In this document: piece by piece, positions 26,691-43,840 of the stretch
How positions within the stretch are numbered: position 1 is the first letter of the stretch
Layout: each line of letters opens with the position of its first letter
Program-made: the position numbers and the translations under genes
Notes under the pieces: model-generated
What the model saw: only the letters and a program-made list of their open reading frames with translations
What the model was told of the DNA's origin: nothing
Database searches by the model: none
Origin: Maridesulfovibrio salexigens DSM 2638
GTDB lineage: Bacteria; Desulfobacterota; Desulfovibrionia; Desulfovibrionales; Desulfovibrionaceae
Assembly (NCBI RefSeq): GCF_000023445.1
Contig: NC_012881.1
Location: 997,501-1,061,500 of the forward strand
Direction: 5' to 3'
DNA length: 64,000 nucleotides

Positions 26691-26718
26691 ATCTCATGTG
26701 AGTGTAAGGTTTATTGTG

Positions 26719-27444: not shown

Positions 27445-27460
27445 TTTGGTTCCCGGTTGG

Positions 27461-28783
27461 CTATTGCAGGTAGCCCCATCCTACAAGTCGGTCATATGCG
27501 TGCTTAGCATAATCCCCTTGGTTATTGACCTTGATGAAACGGTAGTACTCATTAGCTGCCATCTCCCGGTTCCCAAGAGCTTCATATGAAACGCCTTTAT
27601 AAAATGTAGTCATGGGGTTTCCGGGTAGCCTTTTTTCGTATGCATCAAAGTTGGAAAGAGCCTGTTTAAATTGGCGGTTTTCAAGACTGAGCATACCGGT
27701 CAAATGCAGAGCCTGTGCTTCCTGTGGATATCTGTTTTTTGCCTGCTGAGCGTAGTGCAATCCTTCTTTGGCTTTTCCTTGTGCCAGCTGACATTTGGAC
27801 ATGAGCAGTAAGCCTGCATAATCGTTGGGTGCTATGCGCAAAGCTTTTGAAAAGTGTTCTTCAGCTTCATTGTAGCTTTTTTTGCGCATGGCTCCTTCGC
27901 CTTTTTGCATTTCCTCAATGGCAGGTTTGATCTTGCGTATGGATGCGATGTTGTCCATGTATCTTTCGCGCAGAAGTTTGCCGTGACTGTTGGCGTATAC
28001 GGTATCCCGTTTCTTAACAGCGGTTGCGTAGCGCTCTGAACTCATAGGGTGGGAAGCAAACATCTGTTGAACGAATGAAGGTTTGCTTTTGTGCAGCTTC
28101 TCCAGTTCTTCCATGAGTCCGACCATTCCTTCCGGGTCGTAGCCTGCGTTATCCATGTATTCCATGCCGAGGCTGTCGGCCTGTCTTTCATCAGAACGAG
28201 AGTAGCTCGCAAGGAGCATTCCGGCACCGATGCCGCCCAGACCTGCTGCCAGTGGCACGAGTCGGCTGTCTTGAGTGGCGGCAACACCTACCCCGACAGC
28301 AACGATTCCCTGTACGGCAATGGCGGAGCTCATGCGTGATGCTGTGTGCCGGGCATTCACATGTCCGATTTCATGACCCAGAAGTGCGGCAAGTTCAGCT
28401 TCGTTCTCAAGGGTGACCAGAATGCCTCGGGTGCAGGCTATACTGCCGCCGGGAAAGGCATAAGCGTTAACGTAGTTAGCATTAACACACCGGAAAGAGT
28501 AGGGCATGTTCGGTCTATGGCTGCTGGAGGAAAGGGAAACCCCGACTTTCGTGATGTAGTTGCTGACCCGACTGTCCTGAACCTCGCCATAGTCCGCGGA
28601 AAATTGGTGCGGGGAGTTCTGGCGGTCCATCTGGATTTCCTGTTGTTCCGAAACCAGCATCAATTGCTGTTGTCCGGTCACAGGATTAATGGCACATCCG
28701 CTCAGGATGCCGAGAGTTCCGCCTGCGGCCAGTTTCAAGGCCTGTCGTCTGGAAATTGTTTCTGATTTTATATTTTTGTCCAT
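27461..28783 (-). CDS. M48-family periplasmic metalloprotease with TPR tail (BepA-like)
   Basis: 440 residues from an ATG preceded by GGAGGA (the longer open frame has no such site). Twin-Arg signal SRRQALKLAAGG ending in the lipobox LSGC (Cys30), so probably a Tat-exported lipoprotein. Zinc site HEIGH at 137-141 and the third ligand Glu199 in SDERQADSLG. The last 140 residues are TPR-like (SYNEAEEHFSKALRIAPND, AKEGLHYAQQAKNRYP). BepA/LoiP relatives degrade or mature misfolded outer-membrane proteins. The following co-transcribed gene is a solute-binding protein. Confidence 0.9.
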   Translation of the reverse strand: MDKNIKSETISRRQALKLAAGGTLGILSGCAINPVTGQQQLMLVSEQQEIQMDRQNSPHQFSADYGEVQDSRVSNYITKVGVSLSSSSHRPNMPYSFRCVNANYVNAYAFPGGSIACTRGILVTLENEAELAALLGHEIGHVNARHTASRMSSAIAVQGIVAVGVGVAATQDSRLVPLAAGLGGIGAGMLLASYSRSDERQADSLGMEYMDNAGYDPEGMVGLMEELEKLHKSKPSFVQQMFASHPMSSERYATAVKKRDTVYANSHGKLLRERYMDNIASIRKIKPAIEEMQKGEGAMRKKSYNEAEEHFSKALRIAPNDYAGLLLMSKCQLAQGKAKEGLHYAQQAKNRYPQEAQALHLTGMLSLENRQFKQALSNFDAYEKRLPGNPMTTFYKGVSYEALGNREMAANEYYRFIKVNNQGDYAKHAYDRLVGWGYLQ

Positions 28784-29084
28784 GTGTCCTCCGAACTCTT
28801 CGTTATCTATAAAGATATATATGCGTGGGGGCTTTGGCAATAGTTTCTATTTTTCCTGAATAATGAAAACATTGCCGTGGAGGTATGGAATATAATATCA
28901 ATGTAAATGAAATCATGCTTCAATGATTGTTGGTAGAATGTAGAGTTAAAAAAACTGCGGGCAAATACCACTGACTGAATTTGTAGCTGAGACATTGATT
29001 TGAAGATTGCCGTTAGCCCTGTAATTGACCAAAGATCAGTATCTGATTTTGGTCGCAACTGCTAATGCATTAGGGAGCTGCAAA
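28784..29084. other. Divergent intergenic region without a gene
   Basis: AT-rich, between the M48 protease and fetA. It should contain both promoters; I see no strong palindrome or Fur-box match. Confidence 0.5.
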
Positions 29085-29777
29085 GTGAATATACCCCTTA
29101 AAGTGGAGTCCGCCGGTGAGACTCCTGTTCTTGAATTTAAGAATGTTTCATTCAACTGGCCGAAAGGCAAAGGTTTGCACAATGTTTCCTTTGCCGTACC
29201 TTCTGGGCAGTTTGTTCATATTTCCGGACCTTCAGGTGCTGGAAAATCTACCTTGCTGCGGTTAATTGTCCGTCTGGAAGAAGCCGGGCAGGGGGATATC
29301 CTCTTAAATGATGAATCCATACAATCCATCTATCCCCCGGAATTACGGTCCAAGATCGGCTTTGTGCAGCAGACTCCTGTTGTGCTGTCGGGGACAGTTC
29401 GCGAAAACCTGCTGCTACCTTTCACTCTCAATATCAGAAAGGGCTTTGATGCCCCATTAGATGATGACCTGCGCGAATGGCTGGAACGAGTCGGCCTTGG
29501 TGAAATCTCATTAGATAGCGAAGCTTCGGATCTTTCCGTGGGCCAGCGCCAGCGACTTTGCCTGATTCGTTCAGTGTTGCCCAAACCTATGGCAATCTGC
29601 TTTGACGAACCCACCAGTGCTCTTGACCGGGAAAGCCGGGAGCGTGTTGAGAAGATAGCGGAAGAGCTGGCGGCAGAAGGCATTTCTGTACTCATGGTTA
29701 ATCATACCAGTTATCACCCCAGCTGTCCTCACATGCATCTGACCGTTTCAGACGGTAAAGTGGAGGTTGTCGCATGA
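29085..29777 (+). CDS. fetA: FetA/YbbL-like ABC transporter ATP-binding protein
   Basis: 230 residues. Walker A SGPSGAGKST at 48-57, Q-loop in IGFVQQTP, signature LSVGQRQRLCL, Walker B AICFDEPTSALD and the switch His in MVNHTS. The GTG start follows AGGGAG; a longer in-frame start at 29025 has none. Its stop overlaps the start of the permease gene by four bases, so translation is coupled. In E. coli FetAB exports iron and protects against peroxide. Confidence 0.88.
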   Translation: MNIPLKVESAGETPVLEFKNVSFNWPKGKGLHNVSFAVPSGQFVHISGPSGAGKSTLLRLIVRLEEAGQGDILLNDESIQSIYPPELRSKIGFVQQTPVVLSGTVRENLLLPFTLNIRKGFDAPLDDDLREWLERVGLGEISLDSEASDLSVGQRQRLCLIRSVLPKPMAICFDEPTSALDRESRERVEKIAEELAAEGISVLMVNHTSYHPSCPHMHLTVSDGKVEVVA

Positions 29778-30571
29778 ACAGTAGCTTAATTTCCATAACA
29801 TGGGTGCAGTTATTGATAGCTTTAGGGCTTGTTTCCATTTCCGGGGTTCTTTCTATTTATTACAAGCTAAAACTGGAGAAGGATCTGGCTGTCGGCGTAT
29901 TGCGCTCCTTCGTGCAGCTTTTGACTATGGGCTATCTGCTCAAGATTCTGTTTGGTTTGAATAGTGCGTTGCTTGTTTTAGCTCTCTATCTGGTTATGAC
30001 CTTCTTCTCTGTTCATATTATTCATGGTCGGGTAAAAGAGAAGAATGTCTCGTATCTCATGCCCACCGGACTGGCAGTCATGTTCAGTTATTCGTTGGTT
30101 ACTATTCTGGTCACCAAGGTTGTTATCGGAGCTGAGCCGTGGTGGAACCCGCAGTATTTTATTCCCATCGGAGGTATGATTGCCGGGAATTCCATGAATT
30201 CTCTGGCCTTATCTCTGGAAAGGTTTTTTTCTGAGCTCAGGAATAGACGTGACGAAGTTGAAATGCTGCTATGTCATGGTGCGGACTATAAGGAGGCTAC
30301 AGCGGATATATTTCGCGATGCTTTGCGTGCGGGCATGATTCCGGCCATCAACTCACTTATGGGTGTGGGCTTGGTATTTCTTCCCGGTATGATGACTGGT
30401 CAGATTCTGGCCGGTGCTGATCCTGAAGAAGCCGTCCGTTATCAGATCGTAGTAATGTTTATGCTGGTTGCATCAACTGCTCTTTCTTCAATTATTGTTC
30501 TGTTGCTAGTCCGCAAGCGTTGTTTTTCATCGGCTATGAATCTGCTCACCGGGGGGGGAGCAGGGGCTTAG
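29774..30571 (+). CDS. fetB: FetB/YbbM-like permease (UPF0014 family)
   Basis: 265 residues, about seven membrane segments. Family motifs are visible: LRSFVQLLTMGYLL, FIPIGGMIAGNSMNSLALSLERF, ALRAGMIPAINSLMGVGLVFLPGMMTGQILAGADP. Partner of the ATPase just upstream; together they probably export iron or a related metal. It ends in a Gly/Ala tail. No terminator is seen behind it. Confidence 0.9.
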   Translation: MNSSLISITWVQLLIALGLVSISGVLSIYYKLKLEKDLAVGVLRSFVQLLTMGYLLKILFGLNSALLVLALYLVMTFFSVHIIHGRVKEKNVSYLMPTGLAVMFSYSLVTILVTKVVIGAEPWWNPQYFIPIGGMIAGNSMNSLALSLERFFSELRNRRDEVEMLLCHGADYKEATADIFRDALRAGMIPAINSLMGVGLVFLPGMMTGQILAGADPEEAVRYQIVVMFMLVASTALSSIIVLLLVRKRCFSSAMNLLTGGGAGA

Positions 30572-30643
30572 TTTAAATATGGTAATAAGTTTAGTGGGGT
30601 GCATGCTTATAGCTGCATTTAATGCGAATCGAAGGGGGGGACG

Positions 30644-32551
30644 TTGTTTTATTTGAATAATTTGTTTCAGGATTTGTTTGCCAAAAACAGTCTGTGCAGG
30701 AAATTTATTGCATCTTCTCCTGATGTTATTGTTATTACAAATGAGGAAGGAATCGTCTTGGCTGGCAATTCCCGTGCAGCTGAAATGTTCGGTTATGTAG
30801 ATGAAGCTACAATCCCTTTAAGTGTTAATGATAATTATAAATATCCCGAAGATAGGGAGCGGTTGATGAACCTGCTTTCCTCTGGCGAAGTAGTCAAGGA
30901 TTTCGAAGCAGAGGTCTTGGATCGGGACGGCAATTCTATTTTTACCAGCATCAGTGTTTCCGCTATGGATGTGGGAGGGATGCGGGTCTTTGTTGCGATA
31001 GTCAGGGATATTTCGGAGCGTAAGAAAACCCAGTTGAATGAGATTCGGTTTGAAACTCTTGCCACGTTATCCGGTATGGCTGACGCGGATTATAACCAGA
31101 TATATGATTTTGCTTTGGAAGCAGCAGTAAGGATTACAAGAAGTGAGATCGGATATATTTATTTTGTAAACGAAGATGAATCAGAACTCAGGCTTTATGC
31201 GTGGTCTCGAAAAGTTATGCCCCAATGTTCTGTGGAATTAATCCCTGATATCTATCATGTGAAAGATGTCGGGATCTGGGGAGAGGCTATCAGGCAAAGA
31301 CGCCCCATGATTCTTAATGACTATGCTGCATGTGGAGCAAAGAAAGGGCTTCCCAAAGGGCATGTGCCAATCAAGAGGCATATGAATGTTCCTCTTTTTG
31401 ATGACGGGAAAATCGTGCTTCTTGTCGGTGTTGGAAATAAGGAAGATGAATATGATGACGAGGATGTGCGTCAGTTGACCCTGATGATGGATGGCATGTG
31501 GAATATTGTACGTCGCAAACAGGCTGATGAGGCGTTGCGGCAGGCTTACGCAGAAATGGAAGGAAAAGTTGAAGAACGAACCAAGGAATTACGGCGTGCT
31601 CTTGGTGATTTGAGACAGGTTAACTCAGCAATGGCAAACGAAGTTGGGCAGCGCAGATTAGCAGAGCAAAGGTTACGTCAATTTGAGAGGCTTGTTGAGC
31701 TTAGTCCGGATATGGTTTCTCTGCTTGATTCAGACTATCGGTATGTAATGGTTAATGATTCGTATGTGAGATTTTTCGATAAACCCAAAGAATATTTTCT
31801 TGGCCGTCCCGTATATGAAGTTACCGGAAAGGATGTTTTTGATGATCGTTCTAAAAAGTTAATTGATTCGGCATTCGCGGGCCAGACTACAGGCTTTGAA
31901 GCATGGGTCGATTTGCCTTTGGTTGGGAAGCGGTTTTTTTCAGTAACCTACCATCCTGTTGATTCGGTGGTTGGTGACGGTAGACTGGTAAGTATTACGG
32001 CACATGATATTACTGAGCAAAAAGAAATGCTTGAAGAAGTTAAGCGGCTGGCCAGCACTGATTATCTTACCGGTGCCCATAACAGGCGTCATTTTATGAG
32101 CCGTGCGGAAACCGAGCTTGATAGGTTGACTCGTTATGGCGGAGAACTGTATCTCATGATGCTGGATATTGATCACTTCAAGAATATAAACGATACCTAT
32201 GGTCACAGCGTGGGTGATGTGGTTCTTAAGGAGATGGTCAAGTGTTGTATAGAGACCCTGAGAACTTCAGACGTCTTTGGAAGACTTGGCGGAGAGGAAT
32301 TTGCAGCTTTATTGGTTCACGGCAGTATAGATTCGGCCATTCAGGTGGCAGAAAGATTGCGTGAGGCAATTGAAGATATGGAAGTCCGTATAGGTAGACA
32401 TGTTGTGAAACTTACGGTGAGCATCGGGCTTACAATGGTATGTGCTGACGAAGACATAGAGATCGCCCTTAAACATGCTGACAAATGTTTGTATCAAGCT
32501 AAGGAGCAGGGCAGGAACCGGGTAGTTTCTTACTGTAAGAAGGGAAGTTAA
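30644..32551 (+). CDS. PAS-GAF-PAS diguanylate cyclase
   Basis: 635 residues, cytoplasmic. PAS at about 20-130 (SSPDVIVITNEEGIVLAGN), GAF at about 145-290, a coiled coil (about 295-350), second PAS (LVELSPDMVSLLDSDYRYVMVN, about 350-465), then GGDEF with active-site GGEEF at about 549-553 and the inhibitory RxxD site as RTSD nine residues earlier. It should make c-di-GMP in response to small-molecule or redox cues. TTG start with a G-rich ribosome-binding site (GGGGGG) four to ten bases upstream; the start is the uncertain part. Confidence 0.9.
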   Translation: MFYLNNLFQDLFAKNSLCRKFIASSPDVIVITNEEGIVLAGNSRAAEMFGYVDEATIPLSVNDNYKYPEDRERLMNLLSSGEVVKDFEAEVLDRDGNSIFTSISVSAMDVGGMRVFVAIVRDISERKKTQLNEIRFETLATLSGMADADYNQIYDFALEAAVRITRSEIGYIYFVNEDESELRLYAWSRKVMPQCSVELIPDIYHVKDVGIWGEAIRQRRPMILNDYAACGAKKGLPKGHVPIKRHMNVPLFDDGKIVLLVGVGNKEDEYDDEDVRQLTLMMDGMWNIVRRKQADEALRQAYAEMEGKVEERTKELRRALGDLRQVNSAMANEVGQRRLAEQRLRQFERLVELSPDMVSLLDSDYRYVMVNDSYVRFFDKPKEYFLGRPVYEVTGKDVFDDRSKKLIDSAFAGQTTGFEAWVDLPLVGKRFFSVTYHPVDSVVGDGRLVSITAHDITEQKEMLEEVKRLASTDYLTGAHNRRHFMSRAETELDRLTRYGGELYLMMLDIDHFKNINDTYGHSVGDVVLKEMVKCCIETLRTSDVFGRLGGEEFAALLVHGSIDSAIQVAERLREAIEDMEVRIGRHVVKLTVSIGLTMVCADEDIEIALKHADKCLYQAKEQGRNRVVSYCKKGS

Positions 32552-32586
32552 AAGGCCGGTGCGTTTTTACGCACCGGCCTTATTTT
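32552..32586. terminator. Bidirectional terminator
   Basis: AAGGCCGGTGCG pairs perfectly with CGCACCGGCCTT around TTTTTA, followed by ATTTTT; closes the diguanylate cyclase gene and the convergent chemoreceptor gene. Confidence 0.92.
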
Positions 32587-34613
32587 TATGCTGATTTCAT
32601 ATTGTCGATAATGGATTTGAGTTGGTGTGCCTGAGCTGCGAGGTCGGAAACAGCTTCCGCCGACTGGCGCATGGCACTGTTTGTCTCGGTTGAGATATTG
32701 TTGATCTCGTCTACAGCCCGGTTAATTTGTTCTGAAGTTGCGGACTGCTCCTCACATGCTGCGGCGATACCTTGAATCTGTTCGGAAACCGCATCATTAA
32801 GCGAGAGGATTTCACTGAGTGATTTACCTGCATCTTCTGCCATTTCTGAAACTGTTCCGATTTCTTTTACTGTGTATGCACACTGGCTGATGCTTTCTTT
32901 TGTTCCACGTTGAATTTCCGAAATGGCAGATTCAACTTCATTGGTTGCGGTCATGGTTTTTTCTGCAAGTTTGCGGACTTCGTCAGCTACAACTGCGAAT
33001 CCTCGGCCTGCTTCACCTGCTCGGGCAGCTTCAATTGCTGCGTTGAGGGCCAGCAGGTTTGTCTGGTCGGCAATGTCCGAAATTACATCGATGATCTGAC
33101 CGATTTTGCCTGCACTGTCGCCCAGTTCTTCCATCTCTTTTTCAAGGGCTTCAGAGTAATTCTGGACAACTCCGATACCTTCAACCATTTCTTTAACGAC
33201 GTTTGCCCCGTTGGTAGCGGTTGTGCTTGCGTCTCCGGCAGTTGTTGAAGCTTCGCCTGAGTTGCGAGCGACTTCAAGAACAGAGGCGTTCATCTGTTCC
33301 ATGGCTGTGGCTGTCTCCGCTGTTCTCTGGCTTTGCATGTCTGAACCGGTTGCGGATTGTTCAATCTGGGCGGAAAGTTCTTCGGAAGCTGTTGATATGA
33401 TAGCAACAACATCTTCGAGCTCCCGTGCAGCCTGATGCATACCGTCGCGTCGGGCATTTTCAGCTTCTTTACGCGCTTCTTCTGCTTCGAGCGTGGCCTG
33501 CTGCGCTTTTTCTGTTTCTTCTGCTGCGTGGCGGGTCTGCTCCTGCGCTTCGCTGATTTTTTCTTTTAAAGTAACGACCATTGCATTCAGGTCATTAGCC
33601 AGTATTCCTACTTCATCACGGGTCTTGATCTCAAGAACGTGGTCAAGGTCACCTGCTGCAACACGGGTGGCATATTTAGTGGCTTCAATGATGGGGCGGG
33701 CCATTGTTCTGGCGTAAAGCCATGCTGCGAGCATTATAATGGGCAGGATCACGGCGATTACCAGCAGGGAAGATGTTTTTACATTATTCTGGGCTTTGAT
33801 CATGGTTTGGATGGGCATTCCAATAAACCACATCCCTATATTCTTGCCGTTGACTGATTTGATCGGCCAGTATGCTGTCTGGTAGTCGATGCCAAGAATA
33901 TTGTTGCGGGCAAGGAAAGTTTCGCCACGATCAATTACGGTAGCTGTAACTTCGGGGTTGGTCATTTTTGTGCCGACCGCCCGACGACCATTTTTGATGA
34001 TAGTCGTCATTTCACGGGTATCACCATTAAATACGGTTACCTCAAGGTCGGAGAATTGTTTTACATCATCAACGAAGTCTTTGTCGGAGAGTGAGGTTCC
34101 AAGGGATATCGTACCGATTATCTGACCATTCACTTTTATAGGTGCTGCCGCCCGCAGGGAAAAGGTGATTTCCTTGCCCTTTACGATACCTGAAGTGACT
34201 GTTCCACTCAGTGCCTTGTTTACGGTTTCCTGTCCTTTGGCATTGTCACCTAAGCTACTGGCGTGCGCACGCCCAAGCACCACTCCGTTTGCATCAGTCA
34301 GGGTCAAGAATTCAGATTCTGTTTCTACCATCAAAGAGCGAAGTTTTTTCTGAAGCGTTTCAGACTCTCCCTGCTTTATGGCAGTTATTAGGTCAATATC
34401 CCGTGCTAACAACTCGGCTTTCTCTCGAAATCCTTGGGATAGGCTGTCAATATGGCGGTCGACAACTTTTTTCATGGTGGAAATGTTGCGTATTGATTCA
34501 TCGGAGAATCCTTCGGCAACATAGTGGTTCACTGTCAGGAAAATTGATGTGGCGGTCACTAAAGCAATCACCACTGCCATCAACACGATTTTGTTTCGAA
34601 TTGAAAAAGTCAT
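32586..34613 (-). CDS. Methyl-accepting chemotaxis protein with Cache sensor
   Basis: 675 residues from an ATG preceded by AAGGG. Membrane helix at about 7-28, a periplasmic Cache region of the Cache_3-Cache_2 type ([45 protein letters not shown]), second helix at about 271-303, HAMP, an Ala/Glu-rich coiled coil, then the signalling bundle with tip at about 511-545. The Cache type commonly binds small carboxylates or amines. The promoter region carries a perfect 8-bp inverted repeat at 34701-34723. Confidence 0.9.
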
Positions 34614-34700
34614 GACACCCTTTTGATTATAAATTGCAGTTCTCCCTTCAGCTAAAAGCACTCCCTCCCCAGAGATGTTTTTAAGCTTTCTCCAACCTTT

Positions 34701-34824: not shown

Positions 34825-35172
34825 TTAGGACGAAAGGTACTCCGTTGAGTCTTTGGGGGCTTGCTTTCGTGTATTGTCAGTATAATCCCGTGTGATTTTG
34901 CCAACCCTTATCCTGTAAGATTTAAACAGTTTTTCTTTCCCTGACTGTTGTGCTTCGCGATGATCAAGGAGATTTCGCCAAATTTCTATTGCTTCTTCAT
35001 TTTCCCAGAAAGAAAGACTCAGAATTTTACCCTCATCCGCAAGGCTTTGAAATCTTTCAATAGAAATGAATCCTTCGCGGTTCTCAAGGAAAGATTTAAC
35101 TTTGGTTGCAATCTTGAGGTATTCCTGCTTTCCGTCTTCCTTAGGGTAAACTTCAAATATTACTGCATACAT
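34825..35172 (-). CDS. Antibiotic-biosynthesis-monooxygenase-type (ABM) small protein
   Basis: 115 residues. Starts MYAVIFEVYPKEDGKQEYL, has REGFISIERFQSL and LSFWENEEAIEIWRN, the pattern of the dimeric ABM/EthD-like ferredoxin-fold proteins, which include haem-degrading and quinone-related enzymes as well as many of unknown role. GGAAGGAA precedes the chosen ATG. The last 25 residues are basic/acidic and not part of the fold. No operon partner. Confidence 0.82.
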   Translation of the reverse strand: MYAVIFEVYPKEDGKQEYLKIATKVKSFLENREGFISIERFQSLADEGKILSLSFWENEEAIEIWRNLLDHREAQQSGKEKLFKSYRIRVGKITRDYTDNTRKQAPKDSTEYLSS

Positions 35173-35334
35173 ATGTTCCTTCCTTATCAAAGTTAATGTG
35201 TTTTATTTAAAAAAGATCTGATTTTGCACTGCTCCGTATTTTCAGACAAGTAATTTTCAGAAGATTTACTAAGACAAGTTATGCCATTGAAATTGTGTAA
35301 TAATACTAGAATAGATTATCTTTTGTATAGCTGG

Positions 35335-35438
35335 GAGTCCTGAAAAAAAGACCCTTTTATAGAATCAGTTTACAATGTTAAATAGCATATTTTCAATGGT
35401 TTATAAAAGAGTGTCTTATATTTAGGACTCTTCTTTTT
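35335..35438. repeat. Long three-segment hairpin in gene-free region
   Basis: GAGTCCT, AAGAC and CTTTTATA (35335-35361) are matched in reverse order by TATAAAAG, GTCTT and AGGACTC (35402-35430), with unpaired bases between segments and a 40-nt loop; TTCTTTTT follows. It may be a terminator-like or regulatory RNA structure, or a relict element. Confidence 0.5.
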
Positions 35439-35573
35439 CAGACTTTGTGCAAAAAAGCACAAAATAAATTTAAGATTCAGTTGTAAAGAAATTATAATAT
35501 TTTTTTCACAAGAAAAGAGTTTTTCATATAAAATGCAATATTTCAGTATGTTGAGTACCTAAAATAATTATCC

Positions 35574-35603
35574 AGACATGGATTTATAAAATCGTGGTAT
35601 AGT
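35574..35603 (+). promoter_or_regulatory. Candidate sigma-70 promoter of the structured RNA / rnf leader
   Basis: CAGACA (35574-35579) and TATAGT (35598-35603) are separated by 18 bases and would start transcription near 35610, just before the first hairpin of the structured region. Confidence 0.4.
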
Positions 35604-35609
35604 ACTTGC

Positions 35610-35925
35610 TTACTTTGCTATGCTGAACGAATAATCAATTGTCTTCGGCACTTGCTGGTCAGGTGACGGTGGTTTCAGATAATTGTTTATCGGCTCTGGT
35701 CGTAGGTTAAGGGGGTATTCCCTACTTGACCGAAACGGTATTTTTTGGAAAAGGGTTACTCCGAAATAGATACTGAATGATTGACCAATCACTAACCGTC
35801 CTCGCGGTTCTTCTTTCACTGCGTGCCTTTCCCAAAAGGTTACGGAAGGAAGAATCGCGGGGGCGGACGAATCTTTCTTAAAGGCTGTGGGTTGAGGGTT
35901 CCATACACTTTTTAAAGATTTACCG
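35610..35925 (+). ncRNA. Candidate structured RNA or long 5' leader of the Rnf operon
   Basis: No credible protein. Stems read by eye: 35636-35644 with 35677-35685 (9 bp, one G-U); inside it 35649-35654 with 35660-35665 (one U-G); 35705-35711 with 35725-35731 (one U-G) capped by GGG/CCC; a 22-bp helix 35796-35817 with 35845-35866 (four wobbles) whose loop refolds as CCTTT/AAAGG; and 35870-35876 with 35914-35920 (7 bp). Every imperfect pair, seven in all, is a G-U pair on the + strand and would be A-C on the minus strand, which indicates selection on a + strand RNA. I could not match it to RNase P, tmRNA, 6S, SRP RNA or a known riboswitch. Confidence 0.5.
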
Positions 35926-36026
35926 GAGGATGAAACTGCAAATTGATGCATAGGGTTTGCTTCTAATCGGTAGTTTCCGGCTTTAGTGCCTTAATCTTGA
36001 ATCTTTTTAAATTAAGGATTGATCCG

Positions 36027-36503
36027 TTGAAGAACAGATATATCCCAATAACATTAATTGTTGCTGTCTTGTCCGTTGCGGCAATCGCCGGGTTTCTTTT
36101 CCCGCCGGCTGTGCAGGAAAATCCGGCCCGTGTTGTAATGGACAACAGTGGCGGCAGGGTGATTTTTACTCATTTTGTTCATGCTGATGAGTATGGCTAT
36201 GAATGCTCAGACTGCCACCATGACGATATCGGTCAGGAAAGGCCGATTTCTTGCGGAAGCTGTCATCCGGTTGCTTTCGATGCCAAATTCAGGGCTGAAC
36301 ACCAGAAGAGTTTTCCCAGTGAGGAAGCATGCTTGCGCTGTCACGATGATGTCCCTACCGGTCCTCTCGCTGAAGAAGACAAGCCTGATACCGAGAGCAT
36401 CCCTCTGCGCGCTGAAGCTTTTCACGCCCAGTGTATGGACTGTCACGAGAGTGATGGAGGCCCCTACGGTGAAGATTCCTGTTACGATTGCCATGCGAGG
36501 TAG
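36027..36503 (+). CDS. Multihaem c-type cytochrome of the Rnf operon
   Basis: 158 residues. An N-terminal membrane anchor/signal (YIPITLIVAVLSVAAIAGFLF) and five CxxCH haem sites: CSDCH, CGSCH, CLRCH, CMDCH and CYDCH, with further His for axial ligation (class III-like). It sits in the periplasm, anchored in the membrane, and would hand electrons between the periplasmic cytochrome c3 pool and Rnf. TTG start with AAGGA eight bases before; the longer frame from 35997 has no site. It ends five bases before rnfC. Confidence 0.88.
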   Translation: MKNRYIPITLIVAVLSVAAIAGFLFPPAVQENPARVVMDNSGGRVIFTHFVHADEYGYECSDCHHDDIGQERPISCGSCHPVAFDAKFRAEHQKSFPSEEACLRCHDDVPTGPLAEEDKPDTESIPLRAEAFHAQCMDCHESDGGPYGEDSCYDCHAR

Positions 36504-36508
36504 GTCTC

Positions 36509-37654
36509 ATGCTTAGAATACATTATTCCCTTGAATCCGATGTTCAGAAGACCATTTCCGACATCACTGCGCCTGCGGAACTTAATATTTCCATGCGCAA
36601 CAAGATTCTGAAAATCAAGAAAGGCCAGAAGCTTGCAGCTGGTGAACTGCTTGCCGAGCGTCCTTCGAAATACGGTGCGGCCTGTAGTGCGGCGCTTTCC
36701 GGTAAGGCTACCAAGGTCAACTACCACCACCTGACCATCAAATCTGACGGCGGTGAAGAAAGTGTTGCACCCATTGATGTAAAGTCCATGGGACCGGGCA
36801 AAGATCTGCTGCGTACTCTTCAGGAACTCGGTTTGAACGTTGCCGCGCTTTCTTCCCATGCGGATAAGCTGGTCATCAACGGCCTGAACCCGGAGCCGGG
36901 TATTTCCGTTGCCGAACAGTTGCTCAAAGATGAGAAAGAGACCATTGAAGCTGGCCTGCGCCTTGCCGAGTCTCTGATCACTCCGGTGCATACCACGCTG
37001 GCTGTTGCTGCCGGTTCTTCATATGAGCTTGCAGGGGCAGAGCGTGTTTTTGTTAAGCCCAAATACCCCAACTCCCTCGATGCTCTTGTTGTTAAGAAAG
37101 TCACCGGAAAGGAATTTCCTGATGACACCAAAGTGATCAGCGTCATGGACCTTTATAACCTCGGCAGAGTTTATGAAACCGGTATGCCTATCACCGATAC
37201 GATCATGACCATCGGTGAAAAGAACTACCGCGTTCTTTTCGGAACTCCCGTAGCTCATATCTGCAATGAACTGGATATTGAAGTGAAGTCCGGTGACAAG
37301 GTCGTTCTTGACGGTCCTTTCCGAGGTGAAGCTGTTTACAGCCTTGATGAAGGTGTAAAGAAGGGCGATTACGGTTTGTTCGTAATTCCTGCCGGCACAT
37401 TCCCTTCAATTGAAGACGCAACCTGCATCAACTGCGGTGAGTGCGTGCTCAGCTGTCCGGCAAGAATCCAGCCGAACATGCTCAGCCGTTACGCCGAGTA
37501 TGAGATGTTTGAAATGGCTGAAAAGCATAATCTGCACAGCTGTTTCGAATGCGGCCTTTGCTCGTTCAACTGTACGGTTAGACGCCCCATTCTGCAGTAC
37601 ATCCGTTTTGCCAAGGATCAGCTTCTGGCGAGCGGGCAGGGTGAGAAGGCTTAG
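36509..37654 (+). CDS. rnfC: Electron transport complex subunit RnfC
   Basis: 381 residues. N-terminal barrel-sandwich region (ILKIKKGQKLAAGELLAE), Rossmann-like NADH/FMN-binding middle with GLNPEPG, SLBB-like part (KNYRVLFGTP), and two [4Fe-4S] sites at the end: CINCGECVLSCP and CFECGLCSFNC. RnfC is the peripheral subunit that exchanges electrons with NAD(H). Shorter than long RnfC proteins because it lacks the Ala/Lys-rich tail. Start at the ATG just after GAGGTAGG. Confidence 0.93.
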   Translation: MLRIHYSLESDVQKTISDITAPAELNISMRNKILKIKKGQKLAAGELLAERPSKYGAACSAALSGKATKVNYHHLTIKSDGGEESVAPIDVKSMGPGKDLLRTLQELGLNVAALSSHADKLVINGLNPEPGISVAEQLLKDEKETIEAGLRLAESLITPVHTTLAVAAGSSYELAGAERVFVKPKYPNSLDALVVKKVTGKEFPDDTKVISVMDLYNLGRVYETGMPITDTIMTIGEKNYRVLFGTPVAHICNELDIEVKSGDKVVLDGPFRGEAVYSLDEGVKKGDYGLFVIPAGTFPSIEDATCINCGECVLSCPARIQPNMLSRYAEYEMFEMAEKHNLHSCFECGLCSFNCTVRRPILQYIRFAKDQLLASGQGEKA

Positions 37655-37808
37655 CAGTTATAGGTGTTGCGCTTCGCGCTAAAATGATTTGATTTCGCTT
37701 CCGGTAGCACAATTAATCCCGGGATCATCAGATTCTAAATATTGATTGAATAATCATACAGGGAACAGCCGGATTGCGGTTAAACATACAAGTTTCAAGG
37801 GTTAAAAT

Positions 37809-38780
37809 ATGACTCCTCCAGTAATTAAAGCAATGTCCGACATTGCGGTCAGACTTACGGTTTCGCCTGCTCCTCACTGGCGCAGCAAGCGCACCGTGGA
37901 GAAGATGATGCAGTCTCATCTTCTGGCTCTGGTTCCCGCATTGCTCATGGCTTTCAATATGTTCGGCCTGCCCGCTCTCGCAACTGTGGGTATCGCCGGA
38001 ACCGCTGCCGTTCTTGCTGAGGTTCTCTGCCTCAAGATGCAGAACCGTGACGTAAACGTAGATAACTACACCGCACTTTACGAAGGTCTTCTTTTCGTTT
38101 TCCTGTTGCCGGCCGGTGCTCCCTGGTGGCTGGTAGCCAGCGGTGCTGTGCTGACTATCGTTTTGGGCCGCACCGTTTTCGGCGGATTCGGTTCCAACCC
38201 CATTTGTGCGCCTCTGGTTGCTTGGGCATTCTGTCGCCTTTCCTGGCCTGCTGCCATGGATATTGACGCAAACCTTGCTCACTTCATGATCAACGCGCCT
38301 CTGGACCAGCTTAAGTTTTTCGGTCTCGATACTCTTGAGCAGTTCAATTACACCGACCTTTTCCTCGGTAAGCAACTCGGCGGCCTGGGTGCTTCCCAGA
38401 TTCTCGCAGTGCTGGCTGGCGGTATATTCCTCATCGCTACCGGCTGGGTGCGTGTATTCATTCCTGCTGCATTCCTCGTAGGTGTGACCGTTACCGCTTC
38501 CATCTTCTGGATGATTGATCCTGAGGTTTACGCCAATCCGCTTTTCCACCTGCTGACCGGATCTGTAATGTTCGGAGCTTTTTTTCTCGCTCCCGATGTT
38601 GCTTCCAGCCCGGTGGGTATGATCCCGCAGATTCTCTTCGGACTTATTGCCGGGACCATGGTCATCATTATCCGGGTTTACGGCATCTATCCTGACGGCG
38701 TGCCCTTTGCCATCATGGTGGCAAACCTGCTTACCCCCCTGCTGGACCGCGTACGTCCCAAACCTTTCGGAGGCAAGTAA
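37809..38780 (+). CDS. rnfD: Membrane subunit RnfD
   Basis: 323 residues, about nine membrane segments. Starts DIAVRLTVSPAPHWRS, like RnfD proteins that begin with a short cytoplasmic stretch; LGRTVFGGFGSNPICAPLVAWAF and GSVMFGAFFLAPDVASSPVG are family blocks. The SGAT-type motif in which RnfD/NqrB carry covalent FMN is not seen: the aligned place reads INAPLDQLK, without Thr or Ser. A 154-base gap separates it from rnfC; AAGGG precedes the ATG. Confidence 0.93.
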   Translation: MTPPVIKAMSDIAVRLTVSPAPHWRSKRTVEKMMQSHLLALVPALLMAFNMFGLPALATVGIAGTAAVLAEVLCLKMQNRDVNVDNYTALYEGLLFVFLLPAGAPWWLVASGAVLTIVLGRTVFGGFGSNPICAPLVAWAFCRLSWPAAMDIDANLAHFMINAPLDQLKFFGLDTLEQFNYTDLFLGKQLGGLGASQILAVLAGGIFLIATGWVRVFIPAAFLVGVTVTASIFWMIDPEVYANPLFHLLTGSVMFGAFFLAPDVASSPVGMIPQILFGLIAGTMVIIIRVYGIYPDGVPFAIMVANLLTPLLDRVRPKPFGGK

Positions 38781-38783
38781 GTC

Positions 38784-39353
38784 ATGCGCGAAATACTTCA
38801 CATGCTCGTGGTCCTCTCCATCATCTGTGCCACTTCCGGTGCGGTGCTGGTTAACCTTAAGCAGGCCACTAAAACTCAGATTGAACAGCAGGTTCTTACC
38901 TACGTACAGGGTCCTGCATTGCTCTCCGTACTTGAAAATCGTGATAACGATCCCATCAAGGAACGTGTGAAAATAAAAGATGTGACTGTCTTCCCGGCCA
39001 TGAAGGACGGCAAGCTGGTCGGTATCGCTCTTGAAGCCTTTGCTCCCGGTTATTCCGGTGACATCGGCGTTATGGTCGGATTTGATGTGGATAATGACGA
39101 ATTGCTCGGCATCGGCATCACCACCCAGACTGAAACTCCCGGTCTTGGCGACAAGATCATGAAACCGTCCTTTACTGATAAGTTTAAAGGTCACGGCCTT
39201 GATTCCATGCAGGTTTCTGCCAAGGGCGGCGATATCGATTCCATCGCCGGAGCGACTTACTCTTCCGTGGGTACTGTCGATGCAGTTCGCAAGGCCATTG
39301 AGGTTTATCAGTCTATCAAGCCTGAGATCACCAACATCTGGAAGAACTCTTAA
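38784..39353 (+). CDS. rnfG: Electron transport complex subunit RnfG
   Basis: 189 residues: one N-terminal membrane helix and a periplasmic FMN-binding domain. GLGDKI and the flavinylation motif IAGATYSS (Thr receives FMN from ApbE) are present at about 155-162. The ApbE needed for this is the last gene of the operon. Three bases separate it from rnfD. Confidence 0.93.
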   Translation: MREILHMLVVLSIICATSGAVLVNLKQATKTQIEQQVLTYVQGPALLSVLENRDNDPIKERVKIKDVTVFPAMKDGKLVGIALEAFAPGYSGDIGVMVGFDVDNDELLGIGITTQTETPGLGDKIMKPSFTDKFKGHGLDSMQVSAKGGDIDSIAGATYSSVGTVDAVRKAIEVYQSIKPEITNIWKNS

Positions 39354-39362
39354 GGAGACACC

Positions 39363-40049
39363 ATGAGCCGTTTAGTAAAAGAATTTGCAAAAGGACTCTG
39401 GGACGAGCTTCCTCCGTTCAGGGTGCTGCTGGGACTTTGTCCCGTACTGGCTGTTACCTCCTCTGCCGAGAACGGTCTCGGTATGGGAATGGCGGTCATC
39501 TTTGTATTGACCATGTCCAACCTGATCATTTCCAGCATCAGGAAGATTATCCCGACTAAAGTACGTATCGCCTGCTTTATCGTTATCACCGCTTCACTTG
39601 TTGTTACGGTTGAGCTGCTTATGCAGGCTTATGCATATCCGCTTTATCAGAAGCTGGGTATCTTCGTTCCGCTTATTGTTGTTAACTGCCTGATCCTCGG
39701 TCGAGCCGAAGCATTTGCTTCGAAGAACGGTGTGATCCTCTCCATTGCCGATGCTCTTGGCATGGGGATAGGTTTTGCCGTCTCCCTGACTTTCCTCGGT
39801 GCCATCCGTGAAATTATCGGTGCCGGAACCGTGTTCGGCGTTCCGGTCATGTGGGAAAGCTTCAAGCCTGCTGAATTCATGATCATGGCTCCCGGTGCTT
39901 TTGTCGGCCTCGGTGTCATCCTCGCGGGCATGAACGCTTTCAACAGGTACCAGAGCCGCAAGAAGGGCGAGACTGTGCCTGATGTAATGAACTCCGGTTG
40001 TGCGCACTGCGGTGCCTGCGGCGGCATTCAAGACCTTAAGGATAAATAG
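39363..40049 (+). CDS. rnfE: Membrane subunit RnfE
   Basis: 228 residues with six membrane helices; PPFRVLLGLCPVLAVTSSAENGLGMG and the NCLILGRAEAFASKN block are diagnostic (Cys residues thought to hold a membrane [2Fe-2S] cluster with RnfA). The end carries an extra cysteine-containing tail CAHCGACGG, which resembles a metal or cluster site and is not usual. Confidence 0.93.
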   Translation: MSRLVKEFAKGLWDELPPFRVLLGLCPVLAVTSSAENGLGMGMAVIFVLTMSNLIISSIRKIIPTKVRIACFIVITASLVVTVELLMQAYAYPLYQKLGIFVPLIVVNCLILGRAEAFASKNGVILSIADALGMGIGFAVSLTFLGAIREIIGAGTVFGVPVMWESFKPAEFMIMAPGAFVGLGVILAGMNAFNRYQSRKKGETVPDVMNSGCAHCGACGGIQDLKDK

Positions 40050-40063
40050 GGGAGAGCGTTAAA

Positions 40064-40639
40064 ATGGAATACTTTCTGCTTTTTATCTCCGCCATTTTCA
40101 TCAACAACATCGTACTGGTTCAGTACCTTGGCGCATGTCCCTTCATGGGAACCTCCAAGTCCTCTGATGTTGCACTCGGAATGGGTGGAGCGGTTATATT
40201 TGTTACTCTGATGGCGACTGCCATTACCTGGCCCCTGCATCAGTATGTACTCATTCCTCACGGACTTGAGTACCTGCAGACCATTGTCTTTATTCTGGTC
40301 ATTGCATCGCTGGTACAGTTTGTTGAGATGTTCCTCAAAAAGGTCATCCCGCCCCTGTACAAGTCTCTGGGCCTCTTCCTTCCGCTGATCACCACCAACT
40401 GTGCTGTTCTCGGTGTTGCGATCATGGTTCAGCGTAACGGTTACTCTTTTATCAAGTCCATGGCCTACGGTCTGGCTTCGGGTATCGGTTTCCTCATTGC
40501 GCTGGTTATCATTTCGTCCATTCGTGAGCGTCTTGACGTTGCTCCGGTTCCCCATGTTTTCAGAGGCGTACCTATCGCCCTGATTACCGCCGGAATCATG
40601 TCCATGATCTTTTTCGCCTTTAAGGGCATGGTTGCCTAA
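40064..40639 (+). CDS. rnfA: Membrane subunit RnfA
   Basis: 191 residues, six membrane helices. LFISAIFINNIVLVQYLGACPFMGTS and FLPLITTNCAVLGVAIM are the conserved Cys-bearing loops matching RnfE in inverted topology. Start 14 bases after rnfE, with GGGGAGAG before it. Confidence 0.95.
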   Translation: MEYFLLFISAIFINNIVLVQYLGACPFMGTSKSSDVALGMGGAVIFVTLMATAITWPLHQYVLIPHGLEYLQTIVFILVIASLVQFVEMFLKKVIPPLYKSLGLFLPLITTNCAVLGVAIMVQRNGYSFIKSMAYGLASGIGFLIALVIISSIRERLDVAPVPHVFRGVPIALITAGIMSMIFFAFKGMVA

Positions 40640-40666
40640 CAGGTTAAGTAAGGAGAATATTTAGTT

Positions 40667-42781
40667 ATGGTTACTTCTTCTATACTGGTCCTATTCCTGC
40701 TCGGACTTACTGCCGCAGCTGTTCTGGCTGCCGCATCCAAGGTTCTGCATGTTGAGGAAGATCCCCGCATTGCTGAAGTCGAAGGATGTTTCCCCGGCGC
40801 CAACTGCGGTGGTTGCGGATACCCAGGTTGCAACGCAGCTGCAGGTGCAATTGTAAAAGGTGAAGCCGCTCCCGAGATCTGCGTTGCCGGTGGCCCTGAG
40901 ATTGCAGAAAACATTGCTGCTATCATGGGGCTTGAAGCTTCTTTCAAAGAGCCCAAGGTTGCCAACAACATCTGCACCGGTGGTTCCCGTGCAAATTTGC
41001 TCTTCGATTACGAAGGCGTTGAAGACTGCCGCGCTGAAGCACTGCTCTACGGTGGTGAAAAGTCCTGCGGTCTTGGTTGTCTCGGTCTCGGTTCCTGCGT
41101 AAAAGTCTGCGGCTTTGATGCTATCCGCCTTAACGAAGACGGCGTACCTGTTGTAGACATGAACGCCTGCGTTTCCTGCGGTAAATGCGCAGAAGTATGC
41201 CCCACCGGAGCTATCCGCGTGAGTGGTATGACCATGGACCTGCTCCATCTCAACAAAATCGACGATTGTCTGGCTCCCTGCATGCAGAAATGTCCGGCTC
41301 AGATCGACGTTCGTACCTATATCAACCAGATGAAAAACGGCGACATGCGCGGCGCTCTGCTGACCATGAAGGAACGCAACCCGCTGCCGCTGGCTGTGGG
41401 CCGTCTTTGTCCCGCACCCTGTGAAACCATCTGCCGTCGTAATATCGCTGATGATGGTGTGGCTATCCACACCCTGCACCGTTTCGTAGCTGACTGGGAA
41501 ATGAACTCCGGTTCGCGCGTAAACCTGAACTGCAACCCGCCGTCCGGTCACAAGGTTGCAATCATCGGTGCCGGTCCCGCAGGTCTTTCCGCAGCTTACT
41601 TCCTGCGCCGTATCGGTCACGAGCCTGTGATCTTTGAAAAGCGCGAGCAGACCGGTGGTATGATGAAGGGTGTTATCCCTGAATACCGTCTGCCTTCCAA
41701 AGTTGTAGACTGGGAAGTTCAGACCATCCTCGACCTCGGCGTTGAAGTTAAAAACGGCGTTGAGTTCGGTAAAGATATTACTTTTGAAACCCTTGAACGT
41801 GACGGCTTTGAAGCTGTGTTCATCGCAACCGGTGCTTGGAAAGTCCCTGCTCTCGAGCTTGAAAACTCTAAGGCTGAAGGCGTTATGGACGCTGTTACTT
41901 TCCTTGAGGAAGTCGGCAAGTCCATCACTGACCTCAAAGGCAAGAAGGTTGTTGTCATCGGCGACACCAACACCGCTATGGACGTTGTGCGCAGTGCAGC
42001 ACGTCTGGACTGCAATGTGACTTCTCTGGTCGGTTGCATCCAGCGTAAGATGTCCGCAAACAAGAATGAAGTTAAACGCGCTACTGAGCTGGGAAGTGAG
42101 CTTCTCTTTCTAACCAAGCCTACCCGTTTCATTGCTGAAAACGGCAAGGTCAGCGGCGTTGAATATATTGAAGTTCAGTACAAGGACCCCAAGAAGGCCC
42201 TTGGCGACCCCCTGCCTGTTGAAGGTACTGAGCAGACCATTGATGCCGATCTGGTTGTCATCGCCACAGACCGTGTGCCCGATATGACCCCGTTCACTGA
42301 TGCTGAAGGAAATATTCCCTTCAAAATCAACAAGAAAACCGGCGGTATCGATTGCGATAAGACCTCCATGCAGACCAGCATGCCTAACGTTTTCGTTGGT
42401 GGTGAGCTGCATACCGGTCGCTCTATCATTATTCAGGCAGTTGCTGACGGACGTATGGCAGCCCGCGGAATCCACCACTTTGTTACCGAAGGGGAGATTC
42501 CTGAGCCCAAGAACCCGCAGCTTCGTGTCATCCCTGAATCCATCCTCAAGAATATGGATGTTACCTACACCATCCCGAGAATCAAGGTTCCCGAGATCAC
42601 TGTTGAAGAGCGTAAGTCCACATTCAAGGAAGAAGTTAAAGGCTCCATCGTTTATGAAGCAGCCCGTAAGGAAGGCAGTCGTTGCCTCCGTTGCGGCCTG
42701 ACCTGCTACGATGCGGAAGCCGGTGCGGAATACGCACAGGATTCCGACGTGCAGAAGTTCAGCGAATTGGGCAAGGAGTAG
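40667..42781 (+). CDS. rnfB: RnfB fused to a GltD-like FAD/NAD(P) oxidoreductase
   Basis: 704 residues, over twice the usual RnfB size. Residues 1-25 are a membrane helix; CFPGANCGGCGYPGC (41-55) is the RnfB [4Fe-4S] domain; a ferredoxin pair follows at about 125-185 (CGLGCLGLGSCVKVC and CVSCGKCAEVCP). From about 200 a GltD-like unit starts: cysteine-rich Fer4_20 part (CLAPCMQKCP, CPAPCETICRR), FAD loop IIGAGPAGLSAAYF (about 300) and NAD(P) loop VIGDTNTAMDVVRSA (about 428), ending with CLRCGLTC. The fused protein could take electrons from ferredoxin and NAD(P)H at one site. Confidence 0.93.
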   Translation: MVTSSILVLFLLGLTAAAVLAAASKVLHVEEDPRIAEVEGCFPGANCGGCGYPGCNAAAGAIVKGEAAPEICVAGGPEIAENIAAIMGLEASFKEPKVANNICTGGSRANLLFDYEGVEDCRAEALLYGGEKSCGLGCLGLGSCVKVCGFDAIRLNEDGVPVVDMNACVSCGKCAEVCPTGAIRVSGMTMDLLHLNKIDDCLAPCMQKCPAQIDVRTYINQMKNGDMRGALLTMKERNPLPLAVGRLCPAPCETICRRNIADDGVAIHTLHRFVADWEMNSGSRVNLNCNPPSGHKVAIIGAGPAGLSAAYFLRRIGHEPVIFEKREQTGGMMKGVIPEYRLPSKVVDWEVQTILDLGVEVKNGVEFGKDITFETLERDGFEAVFIATGAWKVPALELENSKAEGVMDAVTFLEEVGKSITDLKGKKVVVIGDTNTAMDVVRSAARLDCNVTSLVGCIQRKMSANKNEVKRATELGSELLFLTKPTRFIAENGKVSGVEYIEVQYKDPKKALGDPLPVEGTEQTIDADLVVIATDRVPDMTPFTDAEGNIPFKINKKTGGIDCDKTSMQTSMPNVFVGGELHTGRSIIIQAVADGRMAARGIHHFVTEGEIPEPKNPQLRVIPESILKNMDVTYTIPRIKVPEITVEERKSTFKEEVKGSIVYEAARKEGSRCLRCGLTCYDAEAGAEYAQDSDVQKFSELGKE

Positions 42782-42793
42782 GGGACTTAGGTC

Positions 42794-43840
42794 ATGGAAA
42801 ATGCGGTTAGGCGTTCATTCGTCAAATCATTTGGTGACATCGGCTCCAAGGCGGCACTCATAGCCCACCCTCTCGGTGCGGCAATGAAACTGGCCGATAC
42901 CTTGCGAATCGGTGACAGGCGGCACAAGTATACTGCGACCCGTTTTCTTATGGGGACGGAAGTCAGCATTGCCGCTTTACATCTGTCCAAGGATGCGGCT
43001 CAGCATGCCGTTGAGCTGGCTTTTCTCGAAATAGAGCGTCTTTCCGCTATCTTTGACCGCCATCGTCCGGGTACTCCGGTTTCCCAACTTAATGAAACCG
43101 GAAAGCTGAGCGACGTTTCACCAGAACTCTATGAAGTAATGGGTAAAGCTCAGGCTTACTATCACCTCTCCAATGGGACATTTGATGTAACTGTACTTCC
43201 TGTTTTGGAAATGTTGCAAAAGAATAGAGATCTCGAGGGCCGGTTGAAACTTAGCCAGAGTGATTTTGATGATGCACTGGGACTTGTGGGAGCTAATTCC
43301 GTTAATGTTTGCAAAAACGGGATCAGTTTCAGCAAAAGCTCCATGGCTGTGACCTTGGATGGTATCGGCAGGGGCTACATTGTAGACAAGGCTTCGGATG
43401 TACTGGCAGCAAACGGAGTGGAGAATCATCTGATCATCGCAGGCGGGGATATCCGCGCCGGTGGTGAACGTTCTCCGGGACAGCCTTGGATTGTCGCTAT
43501 TGAGGACCTTTCCGGCAAGGGAGGCTCTACTGCGGTAATCAGGCTTAAGAATGCTGCTGTATCAACTTCTGGGGGCTGTGAGTTCTATTTTGATTCCGAA
43601 CGTGCTCATTATCACGTACCAAACTTCAGAAATGCGATTTCATCGTGTCAGGGTGTCAGCCTTTCGGTTGTGGCCCCCACGGTGATGGAAGCTGATGCTC
43701 TTTCCACTGCGGCATTTGTAATGAATCCCAAGGAAGCGATCAGTTTTATCAACTCGCAGAAACATAAAGAATGCCTGATCTCCCGTTCATCCGGTGCAAA
43801 ATTGCATTCCTGTAATTGGGAAGCGAAGGTCGGGATTTAA
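42794..43840 (+). CDS. apbE: ApbE family FAD:protein FMN transferase
   Basis: 348 residues. MGTEVSIAAL, DVTVLPVL, LDGIGRGYIVDKASD, IAGGDIRAGGE and a late VVAPTVMEADALST (Mg-binding Asp) mark ApbE, which attaches FMN to Thr in RnfG/RnfD-type subunits in the periplasm. An N-terminal VRRSFVKSF could be a twin-Arg export signal, though the following hydrophobic stretch is weak. It overlaps the operon end, 12 bases after rnfB. Confidence 0.92.
   Translation: MENAVRRSFVKSFGDIGSKAALIAHPLGAAMKLADTLRIGDRRHKYTATRFLMGTEVSIAALHLSKDAAQHAVELAFLEIERLSAIFDRHRPGTPVSQLNETGKLSDVSPELYEVMGKAQAYYHLSNGTFDVTVLPVLEMLQKNRDLEGRLKLSQSDFDDALGLVGANSVNVCKNGISFSKSSMAVTLDGIGRGYIVDKASDVLAANGVENHLIIAGGDIRAGGERSPGQPWIVAIEDLSGKGGSTAVIRLKNAAVSTSGGCEFYFDSERAHYHVPNFRNAISSCQGVSLSVVAPTVMEADALSTAAFVMNPKEAISFINSQKHKECLISRSSGAKLHSCNWEAKVGI

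Follow-up and report, generated by a model that had tools for sequence, protein, structure and literature searches.

Among the ion pumps of anaerobes, Rnf holds a central place. In Clostridium ljungdahlii, its synthesis is controlled at the level of translation (PMC6203783); this organism is, however, distant from the one considered here, and the portion of that paper used here describes no leader element of the kind reported below. According to the relevant extract of PMC4215793 on Desulfovibrio alaskensis (citing Ravcheev 2012), rnf is subject to co-regulation by Rex. In Eubacterium limosum, by contrast, rnf has a short 5' UTR, in a range of 41-64 nt given for several clusters (PMC5651825, in extract). 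For Desulfovibrio-type bacteria, the open-access literature searched here yielded no description of an rnf leader RNA or of a sigma-54 promoter before rnf, and the term "rnf" is absent from the main text, as far as it was available in extract, of the paper on sigma-54 in Desulfovibrio (PMC4641369).

The rnf locus of Maridesulfovibrio salexigens DSM 2638 shares with the sigma-54-dependent metabolic operons of Desulfovibrio, as they appear in the extract of PMC4641369, a -24/-12 box, upstream inverted repeats and a place in energy metabolism, but it has two more palindromes downstream of the start. With the Rex-regulated rnf of Desulfovibrio (PMC4215793, in extract) it has in common an upstream Rex-like TTGTG...CACAA repeat, which is putative and present at four of 19 loci. 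Furthermore, it resembles structured 5' UTRs that mask a ribosome-binding site, as it combines a long leader, conserved stems and a predicted hairpin over the Shine-Dalgarno sequence (SD) and start codon with a fixed place before one operon; unlike in those, the long hairpin is limited to one clade of one genus, and the upstream GGAGG together with a TTG start is unusual. The leader is a new, genus-restricted case of a general kind, the structured 5' UTR. On balance we consider it probable, though far from certain, that the stretch described here represents the 5' two thirds of a structured rnf 5' UTR of ~405 nt that limits translation.

The rnf locus

The window, i.e. the whole stretch of 64,000 nucleotides that was analyzed (contig NC_012881.1, positions 997,501 to 1,061,500; all positions below are those of the window), contains an rnf operon consisting of a cytochrome gene followed by rnfC, D, G, E, A, B and apbE and ending at 43840. 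The first gene (36027-36503, + strand) encodes a multihaem cytochrome of 158 aa (Cytochrom_CIII, PF02085) and starts with TTG. The same start codon is found in all 14 orthologues of the genus and at all five loci from other genera (19/19). The genes rnfC, rnfD, rnfG, rnfE, rnfA, rnfB and apbE (36488-43840, + strand) were recognized by Pfam and NCBIfam scans, the start at 36488 being the putative one of the longest ORF. A small ABM-domain ORF (34825-35190, - strand) diverges from the operon, and the 836 bases between it and the cytochrome gene contain the structured stretch. RnfB (40667-42781, 704 aa) is a fusion with a GltD-like pyridine nucleotide oxidoreductase part (FeS, Fer4_20, Pyr_redox_2). 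The regions flanking rnf (24078-34661 and 44104-51930) harbor several ORFs that were judged from sequence to be chemoreceptor-like and GGDEF/EAL-like.

A structured RNA upstream of the cytochrome gene

A sequence-only reading had proposed that 35610-35925 is a structured RNA upstream of rnf that cannot be assigned to a known class, and both parts of this proposal were supported. The + strand of this stretch folds with -111.8 kcal/mol (z -4.74, 0/100 shuffles as low), the - strand with a z of -1.72 (5/100 shuffles as low); when the whole predicted leader is folded, beginning at 35621 and reaching the start codon, the corresponding z values are -6.82 and -1.92 (40 shuffles). A search of the window with Rfam 15 at the curated gathering score gave no match, and eight related loci had no Rfam match with E up to 1. 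A lax scan of 35300-36100 returned six weak matches to eukaryotic microRNAs, snoRNAs and lncRNAs, all of them far below threshold. A known RNA family is ruled out by these scans. A conserved minus-strand protein, which the sequence-only reading had named as a finding that would refute its proposal, was rejected as well: the ORF at 35610-35951 spans 113 aa here, whereas its length in the five relatives is 91, 23, 23, 12 and 60 aa, and all five carry single-base indels that break it.

The consensus fold of six leaders contains stem P2 (35705-35731, + strand) and stem P3 (35736-35775, + strand), the loop of which includes AAAGGGUUACU, invariant in the six genomes. The long hairpin (35796-35866, + strand) is built of a 22-bp helix, an asymmetric bulge, an apical stem and a C-rich loop region UUUCCCAAAA. 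Its helix had been noticed from the single sequence and is indeed present on the + strand, where 35796-35817 pairs with 35845-35866 without interruption (four G-U pairs, no mismatches). Each of the six close genomes can form this hairpin despite differing letters, its outer part being poor in L013, and its C-rich loop is kept, as judged by eye, in these six genomes (clade A, see below) as well as in L017 and L019. Stem P6 (35869-35921, + strand) has a loop containing GAGGGU, which is invariant in the six genomes. Pairing of the CCC in the long hairpin loop with GGG loops was rejected; it would involve three pairs at most, and no covariation was seen by eye.

The stems had also been reported to contain seven non-Watson-Crick pairs, all of them G-U. 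The figure of seven depends on the stems that are counted: folded at minimum energy, the stretch as a whole forms 106 pairs, of which 18 are G-U. That all such pairs are G-U is partly circular, as folding permits only G-U; the wobble cells over six genomes, 50 G-U vs four A-C, are more telling, although they too refer to a structure derived on the + strand.

Covariation and distribution of the long hairpin

The stretch is present as a single copy in its genome, which rules out a repeated or mobile element. Of 58 genomes searched, seven, counting its own, show DNA similarity, and all seven belong to the same genus. Among the 17 genus genomes, 14 carry the first gene as a full-length orthologue (≥71% identity), giving 14 upstream regions; G007, G010 and G013 possess no full-length close cytochrome orthologue, G010 having only a piece at a contig end. 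The six genomes with the long hairpin (own genome and L010-L014) are referred to as clade A, and their sequences of 35774-35921 were used to build a covariance model, R1.

Covariation, for which the sequence-only reading had suggested looking, is present. In the R1 alignment, which was fitted to the model and leans towards it, standard pairs make up 96.1% of the 279 cells, and double-sided changes are seen in 18 of the 47 pairs, vs a mean of 8.3 in shuffles (0/500 as high); sliding the partner by one to three columns lowers pairing to 42-52%, although neither control amounts to a probability. Of the 18 double-changed pairs, the long hairpin with its three helices accounts for 17 (17/26 pairs in helices 2-4). 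P6 shows no double change in 15 of its 16 pairs and is therefore uninformative on covariation, as is the palindrome-2 hairpin, which barely varies. For the long hairpin plus P6, the alifold z is -5.09 on the + strand (0/100 column-shuffled alignments) and -1.63 on the - strand (6/100); for the whole leader it is -5.75 and -3.19, and for the columns from palindrome 1 to palindrome 2 it is -2.98 and -2.43, respectively. The region 35774-35921 is thus a conserved structured RNA, with covarying pairs in excess of both the shuffled and the slid controls, and the long hairpin at 35796-35866 is maintained by compensatory changes.

R1 matches six of the 17 genus genomes, each once and always before rnf. 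These are exactly the sequences from which it was built, so no new member was added. Seven of 297 genomes of the order gave a match, the seventh (G140, E 3.9e-4) being taken as chance, with no rnf gene recognized among the ORFs listed there. Eight of the 14 genus leaders have no significant R1 match, and seven of these eight have + strand folds with z of only -0.16 to -1.89; in L015, L016, L020 and L021, the - strand fold is the stronger one (lower z). The long hairpin is therefore a clade feature that is dispensable for some leaders. The 472-nt leader of L022 (L022:1029-1500) has z values of -4.92 (+) and -4.51 (-) and lacks palindrome 2; it perhaps carries a different insertion. In other genera, upstream DNA was inspected for seven of 45 loci, and four were used. 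The leaders of L039, L040, L041 and L106 fold with z of -1.93 to -2.81 and that of L042 with +1.36, and an alignment of these five with the clade-A hairpin was not achieved.

This distribution bears on the possibility that part of the leader is a riboswitch that binds a small ligand (e.g., flavin, NADH or an ion signal tied to Rnf) and thereby switches the start hairpin described below. A long conserved leader before a metabolic operon would fit such a function, as would the loops AAAGGGUUACU and GAGGGU, invariant in six genomes, and the mostly paired SD of clade A. However, there is no Rfam match, and the R1 element occurs in six of 17 genomes of one genus, with no credible match outside it when 297 genomes of the order were searched, the seventh of the seven matches there not being credible. 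Aptamers of known riboswitches usually have a far wider distribution. Since the 5' part is restricted to one clade, a classical riboswitch becomes less likely, and we regard a riboswitch of any such kind as unlikely.

Promoters and upstream DNA sites

Directly upstream of the RNA lies a sigma-54-like promoter TGGTATAGTACTTGC (-24/-12; 35595-35609, + strand), the usual spacing of which would place the transcription start at about 35621. All 14 genus genomes that have the cytochrome gene carry the box upstream of it, 317-498 nt before the start codon (with the pattern widened by one base to include L016, which has one altered base), and so do five of five loci from other genera, where the patterns were widened after the sites had been seen. 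Its fixed place argues for a sigma-54 transcription unit. The sequence-only reading had put a sigma-70-like promoter just before the RNA, which was not confirmed in this form: a sigma-70-like site (TTAAGA-17-TATAAT, 10/12 consensus; 35470-35498, + strand) does exist, but it is more than 100 nt before 35610. Its -10 box, TATAA(T/G), is aligned in six of six close genomes, and a scan of the region gave five promoter-like sites vs 2.8 in shuffles. The sigma-70-like site may be a second promoter.

Further upstream, there are two inverted repeats of the form GTC-N10-GAC. Candidate enhancer site 1 (35337-35352) is 258 bp before the -24 box, and its offset is -256 to -258 in six of six close genomes, a repeat near -257 being present at five further loci; candidate enhancer site 2 (35413-35428) is 182 bp before the box, with an offset of -181 to -182 in six of six close genomes. 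In total, 19 loci contain 25 GTC-N10-GAC sites, where base shuffles would lead one to expect 0.54; two of the sites (in L020 and L021) look like a terminator hairpin. The repeat is thus present at 15 of the 19 loci, or at 13 after dropping the two terminator-like cases; none was found in L015, L016, L017 and L042. The conservation and spacing of these repeats make them candidate activator sites of the putative sigma-54 unit.

A motif search of 114 sequences, many of them only ~3 kb long, revealed no GAFTGA-type activator beside rnf, and an activator gene adjoining rnf is not supported for this reason. Elsewhere in the same genome, TGTCTTAAAAATCGGACA (L120:6440-6461, G000:C1 about 2823440) resembles the rnf upstream repeats; it is located before a pyruvate:ferredoxin oxidoreductase gene and adjoins genes for an NtrC-type regulator and a histidine kinase. 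A common activator for rnf and the pyruvate:ferredoxin oxidoreductase gene is therefore possible, if rather doubtful, and the link between rnf and this particular regulator is weak. The strict repeat pattern occurs at five places genome-wide (reversed control, one), but neither of the two rnf sites fits it. Among the GTC-N10-GAC copies near the pyruvate:ferredoxin oxidoreductase gene, at least one (L120:6567) appears to belong to a terminator hairpin and others are inside coding regions, and the one in L121 is next to a hairpin that resembles a terminator. The pyruvate:ferredoxin oxidoreductase frame itself is apparently interrupted (L120:5842-6231), with a stop near 5843 and the remainder open in another frame, which is either a sequencing error or real.

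Between the candidate enhancer sites and the sigma-70-like site is TTTGTGCAAAAAAGCACAAA (35444-35463), a putative, Rex-like operator with the form TTGTG-N-CACAA. With the strict pattern, TTGTG-N-CACAA was found at about -150 in four of 19 loci (L009, L010, L011 and L019). The sequence TTGTGCNNNNNNGCACAA occurs at one place only in the genome, namely in this Rex-like site.

Palindromes downstream of the start

Two palindromes follow the predicted start. Palindrome 1 (TGAACGAATAATCAATTG; 35624-35641, about +3 to +20) is imperfect here and is a poorer copy of palindrome 2 (TGAATGATTGACCAATCA; 35774-35791, about +150). A regular expression matched palindrome 2 in 13 of the 14 genus leaders; the same expression found palindrome 1 in four of 14, the rest being recognized by eye. 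In L039, L040, L041 and L106, palindrome 1 is perfect or near-perfect, and it is absent in L042, i.e. a palindrome stands just after the start at four of the five loci from other genera, where it could form a 5'-terminal hairpin. The form TGATTGA..TCAATCA recurs at 35774-35791 and, close to the sigma-54 start or immediately behind it, in L039, L040, L041 and L106.

These palindromes could be operators at +3 and ~+150 that bind a dedicated regulator as DNA, RNA folding being secondary. In accordance with this, palindrome 2 is kept in 13 of 14 genus leaders and its GATTGNNCAATCA is found at one place only in the genome; the two palindromes are 131-149 nt apart in those 13, the leader length being 291-408; and palindrome 1 extends to four loci of other genera. 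Yet the covariation, the G-U excess and the strand bias of the hairpin downstream of both sites would be left unexplained, and as the main explanation DNA operators appear very unlikely. A DNA-operator role of the palindromes may exist in addition to the RNA leader.

The 3' module and the start codon

The coordinates proposed from the single sequence do enclose a folded RNA, but their end is too early, as conservation in the six genomes peaks from ~35921 to the start codon. In clade A, four of 30 positions are invariant at 35801-35830, whereas the four successive 30-nt blocks of 35921-36040 have 30, 26, 27 and 28 invariant positions (111/120). The most conserved part of the leader is thus its 3' module (35921-36050, + strand), beyond 35925, which comprises an SD-like GGAGG, a two-part hairpin, a small hairpin and a start-codon hairpin.

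A second model, R2, was built for this module from 12 sequences with a hand-drawn structure that includes 24 coding bases; L018 and L022 were excluded. R2 matches 14 of the 17 genus genomes and one genome of another genus (15/297 in the order). As 12 of these 15 matches are building sequences, only G012, G002 and G250 are new, the last being that of the other genus (E 0.0038, before its rnf cytochrome). When applied to loci of other genera, R2 matched L106 (E 9e-5), with weaker matches to L040 (0.0015) and L041 (0.079). Double changes are present in six of the 31 R2 pairs (shuffle mean 2.1, 1/500 as high), which supports the structure of the 3' module moderately; 87.6% of the cells are paired vs 84.9% in shuffles, and covariation is weaker than in 35774-35921. 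The alifold z of the module, -2.19 on the + and -2.60 on the - strand, is not strand-specific, and an automatic consensus fold of 14 sequences gave only 13 pairs.

The SD-like GGAGG (35925-35929, + strand) lies 102 nt before the start codon and is found in 12 of the 14 genus leaders at a distance of 100-105 nt; L018 and L022, which fit R2 weakly, are without it. In all 12 leaders having it, GGAGG is predicted to be 64-93% paired, which makes a freely open loading site there not favored. We also considered a leader peptide or attenuator, in which GGAGG would drive translation of a short ORF upstream of the gene (MKLQ...). GGAGG and the subsequent ATGAAACTG are strongly conserved and most leaders contain short ORFs; nevertheless, GGAGG abuts the ATG without spacing, L019 has ACG in place of ATG, and frame-changing indels in close relatives result in products of 7, 12 or 14 aa within clade A. 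This makes a leader peptide highly improbable.

At the end of the module, a 10-bp hairpin (36016-36045, + strand) covers the GGA of the SD (36014-36018) and the TTG (36027-36029). In the 12 sequences, 95.8% of its cells are paired, with no double changes. Its predicted stability is -8.8 kcal/mol in clade A and -3.3 to -8.8 in the other members of the genus. The pairing probability of the SD (AAGGA) is 0.71-0.95 in clade A and 0.60-0.95 in six others, the SD being mostly unpaired in L020 (0.22) and L021 (0.34); that of the start codon in clade A is only 0.37-0.82. Eight of nine among codons 1-9 of the cytochrome gene are synonymously invariant in clade A vs 28 of 92 for codons 41-158, and over all 14 genus genes the values are three of five vs four of 63. 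As the right arm of the start hairpin is coding, protein constraint could conserve it as well.

Leader or free RNA

The sequence-only reading had left undecided whether the RNA is free or a leader. The element is single-copy and always located before rnf, its conservation reaches the start codon, and no intrinsic terminator was flagged in between, which favors a leader and disfavors a free RNA. In fact, the only site flagged by the terminator scan is inside the long hairpin. The constant place before the same gene, with no flagged terminator on the way to it, identifies the element on sequence grounds as a probable cis-acting leader.

A free or processed regulatory RNA acting in trans would extend from 35621 to ~35911-35925; either processing or termination downstream of P6 would release it from the leader. 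The hairpin near 35885-35905 (P6) is followed by a T run near 35909-35913 that the scan did not flag; the sequence after P6 is CTTTTT in L009, L010, L011 and L014, i.e. in four of the six clade-A genomes, three T in L012 and CTATTT in L013. CTTTTT could be a weak terminator, at which partial termination would yield an RNA with nearly the coordinates of the sequence-only reading. The stable fold and the C-rich hairpin loop kept in clade A, L017 and L019 would also suit a free RNA, for which there is a precedent in D. vulgaris with four ncRNAs under sigma-54 (PMC4641369, in extract). But the conserved block continues to the start codon, and no site between the long hairpin and the gene was flagged, so that we consider release as a free RNA distinctly unlikely.

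Discussion

We thus prefer to read the element as a cis-acting 5' UTR that limits translation. Transcription would start near 35621 from the sigma-54 promoter and be driven from the upstream enhancer sites, as conserved sequence and spacing suggest. The nascent RNA would fold into a series of stems, and the weak SD and the TTG of the first gene would be sequestered in the hairpin at the 3' end of the leader. The strong SD-like GGAGG stands 100-105 nt upstream of the start codon, and its role may be linked to this hairpin: translation of the cytochrome-rnf mRNA would be limited until the start hairpin is opened, either by a protein, by a small RNA or by ribosomes loading at GGAGG. In this way, the costly membrane ion pump would be made only when needed. 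Translational control of rnf by the leader is our inference from these predicted structures.

A more specific version, which we put forward tentatively and think rather unlikely as a whole, is that a new cis-acting RNA family, confined to a single group of marine sulfate reducers, gates Rnf translation, with a hairpin-locked start, GGAGG as loading or standby site and the long hairpin receiving the signal, on top of sigma-54, an activator of the lactate/pyruvate type and Rex. In such a family, the C-rich loop of the long hairpin would possibly contact the GGG loop of P6.

If the leader does act in this way, rnf would be a compact and testable case of layered control, by an activator, a redox repressor and an RNA, over one energy-conserving complex. 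Furthermore, the leader might explain why the TTG start of the first gene has been retained.
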